Source: Aliikangiella marina
GTDB lineage: Bacteria; Pseudomonadota; Gammaproteobacteria; Enterobacterales; Kangiellaceae
NCBI RefSeq assembly: GCF_007004765.1
Contig: NZ_VIKR01000001.1
Span: 930,001 to 994,000, forward strand
Direction: 5' to 3'
DNA length: 64,000 bases
Position 1 is the stretch's first letter, and each line of letters starts with the position of its first letter. Under the pieces are notes generated by a model, which saw only the letters and a list, made by a program, of their open reading frames with translations, was not told the DNA's origin and made no database searches. A program made the position numbers and the translations under genes. Of the stretch, positions 34,286-51,579 are shown piece after piece.

Positions 34286-35153
34286 AATGCTTTGGTCGAT
34301 ATTTGGCTAAACCGTAAAAGGCCGCGAATTATACCTGAGCAAGGTGACAAAATGTAGCTGGAAACGATTAAAGCACTTTCTGAAAATTAAAATAAGGCTC
34401 GACAAAGCTAACGTATCAAGGACCATAATTCGAAGTAAGCACCGAGAGCGAGTACTAGGACAAGTATTAAGAGAAGTCCAAGAGCGAATATTGAGACAAA
34501 TTGAGGAGTAAGTACTAAGAGGAATCAAAAAGTGACTGGTGACTTCAGATTTCTCAAAACCGCAGTCAAGCAAATTACTAGCTAAAAAATACCGAGAATG
34601 TCGGTAAATTAACACATTTTCTTAAAAGTGTGCTCAATGCCTCGAAAGTGACCAAATCCTGCGAGTTTTTTTCAAACGCAAGGGATGATAGTTTAAAATT
34701 AGCGTCATTAAGCTATTGATTTATTGAGACAAATCGATCGTAATCGAATAGAAAAACGATTAGATTCAGACTGTCTATTAGTTTCGGTCTACTAGTTTCA
34801 GACTGTCTACTAGTTTCAGACCGTCTATTAGTTTTAGACTGTCTATTAGTTTTTCTAGTTTTCAGACTGTCTATTAGTTTTCAGACTGTCTGTTAGTTTC
34901 AGACCGTCTATTAGTTTTAGACTGTCTATTAGTTTTTAGACTGTCTACTCGCTTTAGAGTGTCTTTGAGCTTCAGCGAGGTTAATGCAGTGATGCGAGAA
35001 GCTAATTGAAATGGACGATGTCGAACCATTGGTTAAAATGTGAGCGGTTGCGCAAACCATTTGTTAGAGTGGAACTAATATTAAATCGCATGTATCTCAT
35101 ATAAAGATATATTGCTCGTAAGTGAGCTGTATTGACAGCTCATTCCTTGAAGA
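34286..35153. other. Intergenic region with repeat array
   Basis: About 870 bases between divergent mfd and the fused transglutaminase/ligase gene. 34400-34520 is purine-rich with loose repeats (aagtayta-type words). 34767-34975 is the array described separately. No credible ORF. Confidence 0.6.
34767..34975. repeat. Tandem array of about 18-19-bp units (AGACTGTCTATTAGTTTT)
   Basis: About 11 imperfect units of cagactgtctattagttt with variants (accgtc, ctactag, ctgttag), degenerating at the right end (agagtgtctttgagctt). The unit resembles GACTGTCTGTTAGTTAG at the right end of the transposase element (20565-20581), so it may have grown from such an end. Confidence 0.88.
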
Positions 35154-37823
35154 TTGTGTTTAAATTCGCGAGAACAGTATTTGAAACTTTTTGGCAAAAT
35201 ACTACTGAACCACATCAATCTGATTTTAGTGATCAGTTTTGTAGTCGTTTTCGCCTGGCATTTGAGTAAAGTTGACAATTTTAGTGAACAACTCAAGCCA
35301 CAGAGTGTTTATGCTCTGTCTCTAGAAATGAGTTTTGAGTCAGACGGAGATGCCGTTAACATTGAAGCTTATGTTCCGCAAGACAACGAGCGTCAGCAGT
35401 TAATTGAAGAATCGGTGGTGACCAACGGTTTAGATTTCCAAGTCGCGACTGATACTACAGGCAAAATCGGTAATTGGAGTGGTGAGGGAATCGATATCGG
35501 CTCGGTCTCGCAAGTGCAATACAATGCACTGATTGCCACCCGGGAAGTGAATTATTTAATTGATGACCAATTACGTATTCCCAAAAAATATCCCGAATCT
35601 TTATCAAGTTATTTAGCCGAGACGGATGCAATTCAAGTCAATCATCCGGAGATTGAAACCTTGTGGCAATTAATTAAACCACAAGACACGCGACGCGTTG
35701 CGCCCGTGGTTAAAGCCATTTATGACTATACCTATAATGAAATAGAGGGCGCACCCTTCAAAGGTTTCACCGACGCATTAACCGCACACCGATTAAAGCA
35801 GGCGAGTTGCAATGGCAAAAGTCGTTTATTTGTCGCCTTAGCAAGACTTAACAACATTCCCGCAAGGCTTGTTGGCGGAATCATTTTAAACCAAGGCAGT
35901 AAAAAAACTTCGCACCAGTGGCTAGAACTCTATATTAATGGTCATTGGGTGCCGTTTGGTCCAACTAATGGGCATTTTGCGACCTTGCCAGAAAATTATC
36001 TTCAGCTCTATCGAACAGACCAATATTTGTTTCGTCATACTGCGGATATCAACTTCGATTATTTATTTAGTATCGACAAAAGATTGGTTGCTTCCAGTCA
36101 TTTTCAAATTGATATTAATCCGCAACAAACTACTTCAGAAATCAATGTCACGCAATTATTGCTAGTGATGGGATTAGAACCGGAAACCGTGGGATTGTTT
36201 TTATTATTTCCGCTCTGCACATTAATGATTACTTTTTTACGCAACATTATCGGGATAAAAACTTTTGGCATTTTTATGCCCATGCTCGTTGCCGCGGCTT
36301 GTGTGTTCACTGGATTTATTAAAGGGATAACGGCATTTATTGTCATTTTATTATTTAGTTATTTTTCGCACTTGTTACTGGACAAAAAGCGCTTACTAAA
36401 GATTCCTCGTTTAGCAGCTATCATTACTTTAAATACCGTATTCTTTATTGTGGGCTTGAGTATTATTGGAATCACTAATCGACTTGAGTTTGGGATGCTT
36501 TCTTTGTTTCCGGTGGTTATTATTAGCTTTATCGCCGAGAAAATTCATAATTTATCGAGTGATGATAATTGGTTTGAATTATTTAAGGTGTCAGTTGGAA
36601 CCTTGTTATCCATCTGGTTGTGTTACTCGATTCTAAACTCATTTTTACTCGAGGGTGTTTTTGCTTTTTACCCAGAGTTTTACCTGTTAGTTTTGGCAGC
36701 ATTAATCTACATCGGTCAATGGACAGGTTTACGCCTCACAGAGCTTCATCGATTCAAAGAAATATTACCGGATAAAGACAACCCGGTAATGGGAATAAAT
36801 GTCCGAAACCGCGACTTAGTATACCGCCTCAATGAAAAAAGTCTGTTGCGATTGGCTGCTGATAAATTGCAAAGTAAACAGGTGTTGATTGCGCATGATG
36901 TACCGGTGCCAGACACAATTTTAGCGGTTGATAGTTTGGCCAAGATTGATCAAGTGGATGTTGCTTTAGCAAAGGTTGATAGTTTTGCGTTGAAACCCAA
37001 TCAAGGATCGCAAGGTAATGGAATTCTTGTCATCGTCAACAGCAAAATAGATGAACAAGGTAATAAAGTTTTTATATCCGCTGGCGGCAAGCAGTATTCG
37101 ATGCAAGCGATCAAAGATCACTGTTGCGATATTATTGGCGGTACCTATTCTCAATTAGGCGATAGTGATACCGCGTATTTTGAGCCGCTATTAATTCAAC
37201 ATCAGGCATTACAAAAACTCGCACCTTATGGTTTGAGTGATATAAGAGTGATCGTGAGCTTGGATAACCAGGCCGATGATAAAGCTGAGCACAATATTGA
37301 GAATAACGCTGAATATGATGCTGATGATTTAGCTAACGGTCATGCTGACCAGCACACTTCAGCGTCAGGCCAATTAGCGGAAAACTCTCATCAAGAACAA
37401 AACTTTCATCAACAAAAAAATTCTCATCAACAAAATGACCGGCCAAAACTTAAAGTAGTTAGCGCGATGCTGCGTATGCCGACTAAAGCATCTGATGGAA
37501 AAGCTAATCTTCATCAAGGCGCGGTCGGTGTCTCGATCAATATTGCCAGCGGTATTACTGAAACGGCTCGAATTAAAAAAGATAACGTGACTCATCACCC
37601 AGATAATCAGGAGTTGCTCGTTGGTGTTCAAATTCCATTTTGGTCACAAATTATCGAAATGTCACTGAAGTGTCCGCAAGCGATTAAACTCGGCTATATG
37701 GGGGTTGATATTTGTATCGACGAAAAGTTAGGGCCACTGGTGTTAGAAGTTAACGGTCGCCCAGGAATTGAAATTCAAAATGTCCAGCAAAAGGGGTTCT
37801 ATCATGAATTTCAACCGGTCTAA
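35154..37823 (+). CDS. Fusion: inactive transglutaminase + multi-TM domain + RimK-like ATP-grasp ligase
   Basis: An 889-residue inner-membrane protein. One N-terminal helix (about 20-37) precedes a transglutaminase-like domain (about 45-330). In it Cys219 (SCNGKS) and His254 (SHQWLELY) are present, but the usual third-position Asp in WVPFGPTN is Gly269, fitting the inactive 7TM-transglutaminase family. Several membrane helices (about 335-530) follow, then an ATP-grasp domain (about 565-885) of the alpha-L-glutamate-ligase-like type, with SFALKPNQGSQGNGILVI and LVLEVNGRPGIEIQN. These two modules are usually separate adjacent genes. An insertion rich in Asn/His/Gln (about 705-765) interrupts the ligase domain. 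The start is probably TTG 35154: no in-frame ATG precedes the first helix. Confidence 0.85.
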   Translation: MCLNSREQYLKLFGKILLNHINLILVISFVVVFAWHLSKVDNFSEQLKPQSVYALSLEMSFESDGDAVNIEAYVPQDNERQQLIEESVVTNGLDFQVATDTTGKIGNWSGEGIDIGSVSQVQYNALIATREVNYLIDDQLRIPKKYPESLSSYLAETDAIQVNHPEIETLWQLIKPQDTRRVAPVVKAIYDYTYNEIEGAPFKGFTDALTAHRLKQASCNGKSRLFVALARLNNIPARLVGGIILNQGSKKTSHQWLELYINGHWVPFGPTNGHFATLPENYLQLYRTDQYLFRHTADINFDYLFSIDKRLVASSHFQIDINPQQTTSEINVTQLLLVMGLEPETVGLFLLFPLCTLMITFLRNIIGIKTFGIFMPMLVAAACVFTGFIKGITAFIVILLFSYFSHLLLDKKRLLKIPRLAAIITLNTVFFIVGLSIIGITNRLEFGMLSLFPVVIISFIAEKIHNLSSDDNWFELFKVSVGTLLSIWLCYSILNSFLLEGVFAFYPEFYLLVLAALIYIGQWTGLRLTELHRFKEILPDKDNPVMGINVRNRDLVYRLNEKSLLRLAADKLQSKQVLIAHDVPVPDTILAVDSLAKIDQVDVALAKVDSFALKPNQGSQGNGILVIVNSKIDEQGNKVFISAGGKQYSMQAIKDHCCDIIGGTYSQLGDSDTAYFEPLLIQHQALQKLAPYGLSDIRVIVSLDNQADDKAEHNIENNAEYDADDLANGHADQHTSASGQLAENSHQEQNFHQQKNSHQQNDRPKLKVVSAMLRMPTKASDGKANLHQGAVGVSINIASGITETARIKKDNVTHHPDNQELLVGVQIPFWSQIIEMSLKCPQAIKLGYMGVDICIDEKLGPLVLEVNGRPGIEIQNVQQKGFYHEFQPV

Positions 37824-39828: not shown

Positions 39829-39987
39829 CTGAAGAGTGGCTATTCTCCGCTCGCTGATTTGCCAGTCATCAAGTTTGGCATCAGTGACGCTCAGCGGAAA
39901 CCAGCCTGACAGTGATAAAGCTAGCAATAAATTAGCAATAAACCCAATTGGCGATAAAGAGAAGACGCTTTGAAATTAGAAGTTAAC

Positions 39988-41148
39988 ATGGATAAACAAC
40001 AAAAAGTGGAAACGAATAAGCTGATCAAGTTAGCTGGTGCGGTTGCAGTCTCAGCGTCTTTGTTCGCTGCACCGGCTCAAGCTGGCATTAAATTTAACAC
40101 CAAAGCGATTGCTGGTTTGGACGATAATCCCCATGAATTGTCGGAGCGTCTTGGTAGCGAACAGCAAGAATTCTACCAAGCGGATTTCAGGTTACGAGCC
40201 GATTATGACCGTACCCTCTACTTAATCGCGGGTGCTGAGAAGTCCCTGTATGTCAATGATGATCGCGCCGATCAGTTTAAGACTAACCTCGAACTTATGC
40301 TGCGTCACGACTTCACGATTTTTGATGAAAAGTTTAAATACCGGATCAATGCCCAGCAAAGGACCAACGATGAAACCTTTGTCAGTCGACGCTCCGGATT
40401 AGTAGGCACATTCAGCGGCCAGTCAATTGCCGATCGTTATGACTTTACCACGACGGATTATAGTGCCGAGTTGTCTTATGAAAATGAGCGCGATGCCGAG
40501 TTTACCTTGCGCTTCGAGCAGCGCGAGAAAGATTATGAAGACTTTGAAATTACCGGTTTGAGCGATTTAGATTACACTCAAAACCGCTATAGCTTTGAGG
40601 TTGAGTTTAATGTCGATGACACTGGGCGGTTCGTGCTGGAAACCGAGTATTTAGAGCGAGAATTTCTTGATCGCCGCGCAAGAGATGTACTGGGAAATGA
40701 TATTGCCGATACGGATCTGCGTTTTTACTATGCTCAAGTGACCGCTGGGTACCTCTATCGTCCTGATCGCGATACTCGCTGGCGATATACCTTCCACTAT
40801 CAAGCCAGAACCGATAATGGTGGTGGCTATTATGATTCTGATAATTCCTACCTACAAATCTACACCAAGTATGAAATGGCGACTTATCACACCTTACGTG
40901 CTCGTTTGAGAGTCGGGGTGTTCACTTATGATAATCGCACCGATCGAGATGAGCTGACGCTTGAAGACGATAATCGTGAAAGAGCCGGTGGCTCGCTGAA
41001 AATCGATTACGAGTGGGTGCTATGGACTTTGTTTGATTCAAACTTAGGGCTTTACTTCGAAGTCGAAGCGCGTAACTTTAATAGTACTGATGACGACTAT
41101 ACCTTCAGAAGACAACGAGCGGCCGTTGGTGTTCGTTGGGAGCTTTAA
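39988..41148 (+). CDS. Probable outer-membrane beta-barrel protein
   Basis: A 386-residue exported protein. The signal peptide is KLIKLAGAVAVSASLFAAPAQA. The mature part is an alternation of charged/aromatic strands such as YSAELSYENERDAEFTLRFEQREKDYEDF and YYAQVTAGYLYRPDRDTRWRYTFHYQAR, and it ends in AAVGVRWEL, which looks like a barrel-closing strand. No match to a named porin is recognised. The ATG at 39988 follows AGAAG. It lies 159 bases after the TPR gene, same strand, and probably belongs to the same operon. Confidence 0.72.
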   Translation: MDKQQKVETNKLIKLAGAVAVSASLFAAPAQAGIKFNTKAIAGLDDNPHELSERLGSEQQEFYQADFRLRADYDRTLYLIAGAEKSLYVNDDRADQFKTNLELMLRHDFTIFDEKFKYRINAQQRTNDETFVSRRSGLVGTFSGQSIADRYDFTTTDYSAELSYENERDAEFTLRFEQREKDYEDFEITGLSDLDYTQNRYSFEVEFNVDDTGRFVLETEYLEREFLDRRARDVLGNDIADTDLRFYYAQVTAGYLYRPDRDTRWRYTFHYQARTDNGGGYYDSDNSYLQIYTKYEMATYHTLRARLRVGVFTYDNRTDRDELTLEDDNRERAGGSLKIDYEWVLWTLFDSNLGLYFEVEARNFNSTDDDYTFRRQRAAVGVRWEL

Positions 41149-50532: not shown

Positions 50533-51339
50533 ATGCTTCATCAGAATAAGAATGTTATCAAAAACCTGCTCAGACTGGTATTGTCTGTATCAATCGCGGT
50601 TGCAGGCGTTAACGCATACAGCTCAACAACAGAGAGATGCGTTAAGAATTCCGACTGTGAATCTGGGGAATGTACATTTGGTAAATGCAAACCTGCGTCT
50701 AAGCCCACTTTACCCAAATCCAAAAAATGCATCAGTAACAAAGACTGTCCCTCAGGACGCTGTGTTAATGGTGTCTGCAAACCTGATCCGCTTCGCTGTC
50801 ATAAAAATTCCGACTGCGCATCTGGCCAATGTGTTTCAGGGCGATGTAAAACCAAAGCTTCGCCAATTACGCCAAAACCAAAACGCTGCGTCAGCAATAA
50901 AGACTGTGCCCAAGGACGTTGTGTCAATGGCGTCTGTAAACCCGACCCTCTGCGTTGTCGCAAGGGAAGTGATTGCGCTTCTGGAAAATGCGACCGGGGT
51001 CAATGTAAACCCAAAGCCTCGCCAATTGCACCCAAACCGAAACGCTGTATCAGCAATAAAGACTGTGCCCAAGGACGTTGTGTTAATGGCGTCTGTAAAC
51101 CCGACCCTCTGCGCTGTCGAAAGGGCAGTGATTGTGCCTCTGGAAAATGCGATCGGGGTCAATGTAAACCCAAAGCCTCTCCAGTTACACCGAAGCCGAA
51201 ACGCTGTACCAGCAATAAAAACTGCGCCCAAGGACGTTGCGTCAACGGCGTCTGTAAACCTGACCCACTGCGCTGTCGTAAGGGCAGTGACTGTGCCTCT
51301 GGAAAATGCGATCGGGGTCAATGTAAGCCGAAAGTATAG
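50533..51339 (+). CDS. Secreted cysteine-rich repeat protein
   Basis: A 268-residue exported protein. The signal peptide (about 1-28, LVLSVSIAVAGVNA) is followed by alternating small Cys modules, CxxxxDCxxGxCxxGxC, each with four cysteines, ten modules in all. Two modules plus a Pro/Lys linker (PKPKRC...KPKASPI) make a 53-residue unit, repeated three times almost exactly (about 159 bp each at DNA level) after a diverged first copy. The modules resemble Dickkopf/EGF-like Cys knots, expected to be disulfide-bonded in the periplasm or outside. Function unknown. Confidence 0.85.
   Translation: MLHQNKNVIKNLLRLVLSVSIAVAGVNAYSSTTERCVKNSDCESGECTFGKCKPASKPTLPKSKKCISNKDCPSGRCVNGVCKPDPLRCHKNSDCASGQCVSGRCKTKASPITPKPKRCVSNKDCAQGRCVNGVCKPDPLRCRKGSDCASGKCDRGQCKPKASPIAPKPKRCISNKDCAQGRCVNGVCKPDPLRCRKGSDCASGKCDRGQCKPKASPVTPKPKRCTSNKNCAQGRCVNGVCKPDPLRCRKGSDCASGKCDRGQCKPKV
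50866..51339. repeat. 159-bp in-frame tandem repeat in the Cys-rich gene
   Basis: Three near-identical units starting about 50866, 51025 and 51184, encoding the 53-residue double module; a fourth, diverged copy lies upstream. Because the unit length is a multiple of three and lacks stops in other frames, long spurious ORFs also appear in frame +2 and on the minus strand. Confidence 0.85.
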
Positions 51340-51579
51340 CTAATTTGCGTACGTTGTAGGTTAACTACGAAATCGTGATTTTCTGGAGTAACGGGTCAGA
51401 TTGATCTGATTATCAAAGGAGTATAGATAGGCATAAAAACTCAACAGGTGTCTGCTTACGGCCTTTGGCAGATTAATCATTAGTCAATTGTATCTCAAAA
51501 AGTTAATATGCCCATTGCTAAACTAAATGACTTTATCCTAAAATAGCGCGTTTTTTGTGCTGACCAGATAATCTAGCTC

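Follow-up and report, generated by a model that had tools for sequence, protein, structure and literature searches.

Within a stretch of 64,000 nucleotides from Aliikangiella marina (contig NZ_VIKR01000001.1, positions 930,001 to 994,000; hereafter the window) a single open reading frame (ORF) encodes a transglutaminase-like domain, a 7TM membrane domain and a RimK-like ATP-grasp ligase in one polypeptide, and the genes that follow it encode a tetratricopeptide repeat (TPR) protein and a predicted outer-membrane beta-barrel. It is proposed, with a probability of roughly one half, that these proteins form an envelope-spanning system in which a chain with amide links, possibly polyglutamate, is synthesised by the ligase, exported and processed. 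The fused protein would be the inner-membrane engine of this multi-part system. Its cytoplasmic RimK-like domain would use ATP to join amino acids, most plausibly glutamate, by amide links into a short or long chain, its 7TM part would pass the growing chain to the periplasm, and its periplasmic Cys-His transglutaminase-like domain, presumably catalytic, would trim, transfer or bind the chain there. The membrane-anchored TPR protein would steer the chain through the periplasmic space, and in loci that have the 16-strand barrel its release would take place there. This is proposed because the list of parts matches that of the synthase-dependent exopolysaccharide systems. The architecture is well supported; the substrate, the activity and the direction of transport we infer.

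The frame of the fused gene runs uninterrupted from 35154 to 37823 on the forward strand over 889 codons, with TTG as the first codon. Comparison with relatives makes the TTG at 35181 the more likely start (880 amino acids); the structural model and the alignment of relatives follow the 880-residue numbering, which is nine below the 889-residue numbering. A search of the window's genome with the fused protein returned a single match at E<=0.001. In Pfam the protein matched Transglut_core at residues 185-270 (57.6 bits, cut-off 23), 7TM_transglut at residues 345-537 (127.1 bits, cut-off 25) and ATPgrasp_ST (201.8 bits, cut-off 31.4, best stretch ending at residue 888), and no glycosyltransferase family was reported for it. 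An earlier note on this DNA had described one 889-residue frame that joins both modules, and the presence of the three domains in one intact ORF bears this out. From the families which that note had named, 7TM_transglut and ATPgrasp_ST were found, PF14400 Transglut_i_TM was not reported for the protein at E<=0.001, and TIGR02291 stayed below its cut-off (215.3 bits against 314.2). The score on the NCBIfam RloB model was likewise too low (96 bits, cut-off 900); this cut-off is very strict, as a classic split RloB reaches 351 bits, its RloC having 553.9 on TIGR02291.

AlphaFold2, run on a 32-row alignment, gave a model with a mean predicted local distance difference test (pLDDT) score of 84, in which an N-terminal helix is followed by an alpha/beta domain, then by membrane helices packed into a bundle and finally by the ATP-grasp domain. 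The top fold match of this model in the PDB (Foldseek) was 3isr, a putative cysteine protease that is transglutaminase-like. RimK structures came next, and one of these is titled poly-alpha-L-glutamate peptides synthetase. With a single helix preceding the first domain and seven following it, the transglutaminase domain is predicted to face the periplasm and the ligase the cytoplasm; the number seven is that of the family definition, with which model and hydropathy agree without settling it. The predicted topology thus agrees with the cytoplasmic C-terminal ligase of the earlier note. The RimK motifs GVDI and EVN-PG-E are conserved in the ligase domain (GVDI...LEVNGRPG in the window protein), so that the window ligase combines the ATP-grasp fold with the C-terminal D/E/N motif of RimK ligases. 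These two features constitute its likeness to RimK and RimB-RimK; it differs from them in being fused to a membrane domain and in having no room for the RimK N-terminal region.

The fusion is not a one-off, and its distribution was followed in two surveys. In the first, 88 of 149 genomes (the window's own included) gave a match, and fused frames were present in 14 genomes besides the window's, 13 read as ORFs and G028 from its match row alone; in G015 the fused frame is interrupted by stops. According to their match rows the other matching genomes carry unfused pairs or weak matches. The second, a scan of GTDB species genomes, yielded 219 pattern matches and 176 relatives, the best 80 of which were kept as loci. 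Classification was possible for 76, L109, L119, L126 and L131 being dropped because they have no single-ORF core (longest-first choice, ORFs of at least 90 amino acids). Both modules lie in one ORF in 47 of the 76, including three that are short, cut or broken (L073, L093 and L095). The remaining 29 are unfused, with the ATP-grasp gene adjoining the core in 25. This provides the comparison of fused and split forms that the earlier note had suggested.

In a tree of the transglutaminase-7TM part, all 45 fused rows (45/45) were on one side of a branch with a support of 100 in the Shimodaira-Hasegawa-like approximate likelihood ratio test (SH-aLRT). The tree is a quick one, with SH-aLRT support only, of 75 rows (70 loci, the window and four RloB proteins of the rlo operons discussed below), and leaves out L073, L093, L095, L097, L106 and L115, which are short, broken or cut. 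The simplest account of this well-supported clade is one fusion event, in Gamma- and Alphaproteobacteria. Unfused relatives with all four modules occur in Pseudomonadota, Bacteroidota, Myxococcota, Nitrospirota and Thermodesulfobacteriota, while Spirochaetota (L132) and Campylobacterota (L128) have the transglutaminase-7TM protein, the ligase and the TPR protein without a clear barrel; many of the records of unfused relatives are metagenome assemblies.

A related arrangement is known from the rlo operon of Pseudomonas aeruginosa, in which a transglutaminase-like domain plus 7TM part (RloB) is encoded next to a TIGR02291-type ATP-grasp ligase (RloC) in the same domain order, and in which the secreted retropepsin RloA adjoins rloB (PMC12239564, in the part of the paper available). 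As reported there, RloA cuts reporters that carry 8 or 10 glutamates and leaves those with 6 or fewer uncut. A mutant without its three RloA proteases regains hypoosmotic growth, and in part other traits, when rloB or rloC is deleted. Our reading of this is that RloC makes and RloB delivers to the periplasm something like polyglutamate; the authors leave the mechanism open in that part of their text. In the rlo-type loci that were read, the modules are adjacent separate genes, which the earlier note had given as the normal state.

The window family differs from the rlo type in several respects. Split RloB proteins have neither Cys nor His at the triad columns (6/6 aligned), and the classic RloB proteins tested all match PF14400 (3/3). 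In contrast, Cys and His are kept in all 76 covering rows of the 77 (76 loci and the window; L095, a broken frame, does not cover the triad). The third triad residue is Asp in 59 rows, Gly in 16 and Cys in 1, with six state changes on the tree. As the motifs of the GTDB scan surrounded Cys and His, the conservation of these two is partly by selection, which does not hold for the Asp count. The window protein itself keeps Cys219 and His254 and has Gly269 in the place of the Asp, exactly as noted before. The 'inactive' type to which the earlier note assigned it does not suit a family with Cys and His in all covering rows and Asp in most. Transglut_core was matched by the window protein and by the six other family members tested (6/6). 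Two of these six also matched PF14400 (L110 with 44.3 bits, cut-off 25, and L053 with 20.4, below the cut-off), and the rlo type and the window family are therefore regarded as relatives.

No RloA-like gene was found with four RloA-type queries and the genome's RimB in the 80 GTDB loci (flanks up to 8 kb, shorter at contig ends), in 14 family loci or in the 64-kb window. The same search matched 18 of 18 rlo-type control loci from 16 genomes, nine of which were read as ORFs and the others taken from match rows; L019/L047 and L029/L048 are the same genes, and L021 contains the gene of one of the queries. Beside the four rlo loci that were read, BLAST gave no match to the TPR or the barrel protein of the window. 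A simple RloB-RloC fusion was rejected for the window protein, as the triad, the PF14400 and the RloA tests all differ. The inactive-triad, PF14400 and RloA features are absent and both NCBIfam cut-offs are missed; the name RloB-RloC is therefore unsuitable for the fused protein, which is best called a member of a sister family with a different operon. A derivation of the fusion from same-frame rlo pairs was also rejected, since the tree nests the fused clade within the Cys-His family and places the four rlo rows apart from it. Several rlo operons (e.g. L019) do have rloB and rloC in a shared frame, separated by a single stop codon.

The TPR protein is encoded by the next same-strand ORF in 44 of the 44 fused loci with room for it, the remaining three of the 47 stopping at a contig edge, and the barrel adjoins 29 of the 47 fused cores. 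Among the 29 unfused loci TPR was present in 22 and the barrel in 20, the barrel flags being doubtful in L121 (579 amino acids) and in L132 (612 amino acids, upstream, where Pfam shows TPR alone). As the TPR profile derives from TPR proteins of the family itself and the barrel profile went through four iterations confined to these loci, weak single hits may be wrong. Outside Kangiella the family loci sit in differing surroundings across relatives, and the common gene order is for this reason not mere inheritance of a long block. The barrel protein of the window stayed below cut-off in every Pfam match (best E 0.0035). Its AlphaFold2 model (pLDDT 87) matched folds in the PDB that include OmpG, FadL, Occ channels and AlgE. 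The barrel was present in 9 of 369 genomes of the class, and in 8 of these a transglutaminase-7TM gene lies close by on the same contig. A longer false ORF can conceal a gene; this is likely at the G314 barrel, so the missing transglutaminase-7TM gene of G314 is not firm. Of the 13 genomes matched in the class-wide search, seven belong to the nine with the barrel; the reading also covered G328 and left out G214, G239, G262, G309 and G497.

Synthase-dependent exopolysaccharide systems combine inner-membrane polymerisation and transport, a periplasmic modifying enzyme, an alpha/alpha-repeat domain and a barrel porin, and the porins PgaA and BcsC are 16-stranded (PMC9384988, in the sections available). 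With AlgK/AlgE, PgaA, PelB and BcsC (PMC9384988) the window locus shares synthesis or transport, a processing enzyme, a repeat scaffold and a barrel of the 16-strand type in one operon, and it encodes both the TPR scaffold and the outer-membrane barrel with the candidate inner-membrane synthesiser. The likeness is one of layout rather than of demonstrated sequence kinship. The candidate synthesiser is an ATP-grasp ligase instead of a polysaccharide synthase, and the TPR protein has an N-terminal hydrophobic segment and is neither fused to the barrel nor lipid-anchored. The modules are known and the layout is like that of known secretion systems; the combination appears to be new. A wider formulation, which we put forward tentatively and hold to be somewhat doubtful, is that of a Gram-negative machine in several phyla that makes a ribosome-independent poly-amino acid (e.g. 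poly-alpha-glutamate) at the inner membrane and secretes it via the TPR protein and a dedicated 16-strand barrel, the transglutaminase-like domain processing the chain. This would be an amide counterpart of alginate and cellulose secretion, in which one proteobacterial branch has fused synthesiser, translocator and processor.

Several observations weigh against the export of an amide-linked chain. With respect to the ligase, the sequence match to RimK begins at RimK residue 86, about 20 residues past the 7TM domain. RimK is reported to contact polyglutamate through seven residues, five of which (Ser7, Arg8, Ser14, Arg64 and Ser68) lie at positions 7-68 (PMC10092738, in the part available), and by sequence match only the equivalents of Arg189 and Asn262 were seen. 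Since the window ligase lacks the space for an N-terminal region carrying five of these contacts, glutamate is not established as the substrate. It is a speculation that the membrane domain could replace this region, which would give the fusion a mechanical meaning. With respect to the periplasmic domain, the window protein does not have the full Cys-His-Asp triad. The barrel raises further points. Its fold likeness is general, with query template modelling scores (TM-scores) of 0.30-0.47 among the 50 rows listed. It is missing from 18 of the 47 fused cores, 6 at contig ends and 12 with room (7 Hyphomonadaceae, 4 Kangiella and 1 Hydrogenovibrio); no barrel match at all was found in 7 of 7 Kangiella (genus g5) genomes, and G328 has a fused gene and a TPR gene with no barrel beside them. 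The estimated net charge of the lumen is positive in 17 of 22 barrels and negative in 5, the window's reaching only +5; guessed from strand parity as it is, the estimate leaves the idea of a polyanion undecided. Finally, a related barrel stands beside an AstE/AspA-type hydrolase in four relatives, with no transglutaminase-7TM gene in the locus. To judge from gene order, this shows that the barrel can have other partners.

The absence of the barrel from part of the loci also bears on the alternative that survives best, although it is in itself rather unlikely, namely envelope modification. The ligase would then build a small peptide or aminoacyl group and the transglutaminase domain would transfer it to an acceptor in the periplasm or the outer membrane. 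The barrel or the TPR protein would serve as acceptor or scaffold and not as a channel. Loci of the Kangiella type and of Hyphomonadaceae, which keep the fused protein and TPR with no barrel alongside, agree with this, as do the Cys and His in every covering row and the Asp in most. Transglutaminase folds commonly catalyse acyl transfer, which counts in the same direction. Modification alone, however, leaves the linkage to a 16-strand barrel in several phyla unexplained, and the third triad residue varies, with its repeated changes of state on the tree.

In the fusion, ligase and membrane part necessarily occur in a one-to-one ratio, and on this ground it is argued that the two act together. 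The earlier note had gone further in regarding the membrane part as sensor-like. In a sensor-ligase of this kind the periplasmic domain would sense a ligand and control a cytoplasmic glutamate ligase that acts on cytoplasmic targets. The predicted placement of the two domains inside and outside would suit such a sensor, and RimK modifies the ribosomal protein S6/RpsF (PMC12239564 and PMC10092738, in the parts available). Nevertheless this is improbable, as the neighbouring genes are envelope components and the genome carries a separate rimB-AstE-rimK cluster elsewhere, which contains its one PF05618 gene. The two parts do form one polypeptide; 'sensor-like' found no direct support, and the neighbours suggest envelope assembly. 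The observation of the earlier note is confirmed in this way, its interpretation only in part.

Still less can be said for uptake, in which the barrel would import a peptide-like nutrient that the fused protein moves or remodels inward. The resemblance of the barrel fold to OmpG, FadL and Occ channels and the four genomes with a related barrel by the AstE/AspA-type hydrolase are consistent with it. In general, a catabolic route would not be expected to employ a ligase that consumes ATP, and uptake is held to be very unlikely. Nothing was found in favour of two genes joined by a sequencing or assembly artefact, the error that the earlier note had allowed for, and this can practically be dismissed, as the fused frame recurs in many independent assemblies and the junction at about 36740-36860 aligns unbroken across eight fused relatives.

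If the export of an amide-linked chain is correct, many genes annotated as 'inactive transglutaminase' and 'alpha-L-glutamate ligase-like' would gain a testable product and route. For the rlo system it would suggest a path by which a glutamate chain could enter the periplasm, to be cut there by RloA, and synthase-dependent secretion would be a layout that serves amide-linked chains as well as sugars. Neither the fused form nor a transglutaminase-7TM protein with TPR and barrel was found described in the open-licence full-text literature, which did not include the amidoligase survey of Iyer et al. 2009 that may cover part of it. The features of the locus are collected in Table 1.

Table 1. Features of the fused gene and its downstream neighbours in the window (residues in 889-residue numbering unless stated)
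Feature	Position	Strand	Basis or remark
Fused transglutaminase-7TM-ATP-grasp protein	35154..37823	+	889 aa; likely start TTG 35181, 880 aa
N-terminal membrane helix, residues ~21-39	35214..35270	+	model helix 12-30 (880-aa numbering), hydropathy
Predicted periplasmic transglutaminase-like domain	35301..36089	+	Pfam Transglut_core 185-270, alignment, fold match 3isr
Cys219 codon	35808-35810	+	alignment
His254 codon	35913-35915	+	alignment
Gly269 codon (in Asp place)	35958-35960	+	alignment
7TM_transglut membrane domain, residues 345-537	36186..36764	+	Pfam, model helices
Predicted cytoplasmic ATP-grasp ligase, RimK-like fold, residues ~550-889	36801..37820	+	Pfam, fold match, motifs
His/Gln/Asp-rich low-complexity insert in ligase, residues ~706-762	37269..37439	+	alignment, model
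TPR protein, one N-terminal hydrophobic segment	37804..39828	+	likely ATG 37804, overlaps fused gene by 20 bases
Predicted outer-membrane beta-barrel	39970..41148	+	probable signal peptide and 16 strands, first ATG 39988, AlphaFold2

The insert in the ligase domain (residues 706-762, about 57 residues) has low model confidence and is missing from the eight aligned fused relatives. It contains an 18-bp tandem repeat (37381-37435) and looks like a recent repeat-driven expansion. A tandem array with a unit of about 18 bp (AGACTGTCTATTAGTTT type) is also present in the intergenic region upstream of the fused gene, at 34759-34947 (8 matches against 0.04 expected).

Some other genes were seen near members of the family. 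In four loci of Bacteroidota (L101, L112, L114 and L122) a fifth gene after the barrel is spermine-synthase-like, PF01564 (by Pfam in L112 and L122, by BLAST in L101 and L114); polyamines are classic transglutaminase acceptors. A divergent histidine kinase gene lies next to the fused gene in L041 (11596-13221), and a gene for an OmpR-type response regulator lies upstream of it in L058 (144-878). TrkA/TrkH potassium-uptake-like genes, named by eye, were seen in the group of loci L065, L075 and L155; they are located upstream of the fused gene, and genes similar in look are found near the lone barrel match in G314. The loci in which the related barrel accompanies the AstE/AspA hydrolase, L139 (G005), L140 (G001), L141 (G006) and L142 (G002), also contain gltX and an M23 peptidase gene, gltX being named by eye and the M23 identity being covered by Pfam in L139, L140 and L141; in G012 (L043) and G015 (L042) the fused system is beside the same gltX-M23 pair. 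A PF05618 match falls in open frames of about 470 codons in G001, G003, G004, G005, G006, G012 and G015. These are perhaps RimB-RimK fusions, whereas the window's genome has separate genes. Elsewhere in the window, at 50533-51343 on the forward strand, two ORFs of 268 and 263 amino acids overlap strongly in different frames.

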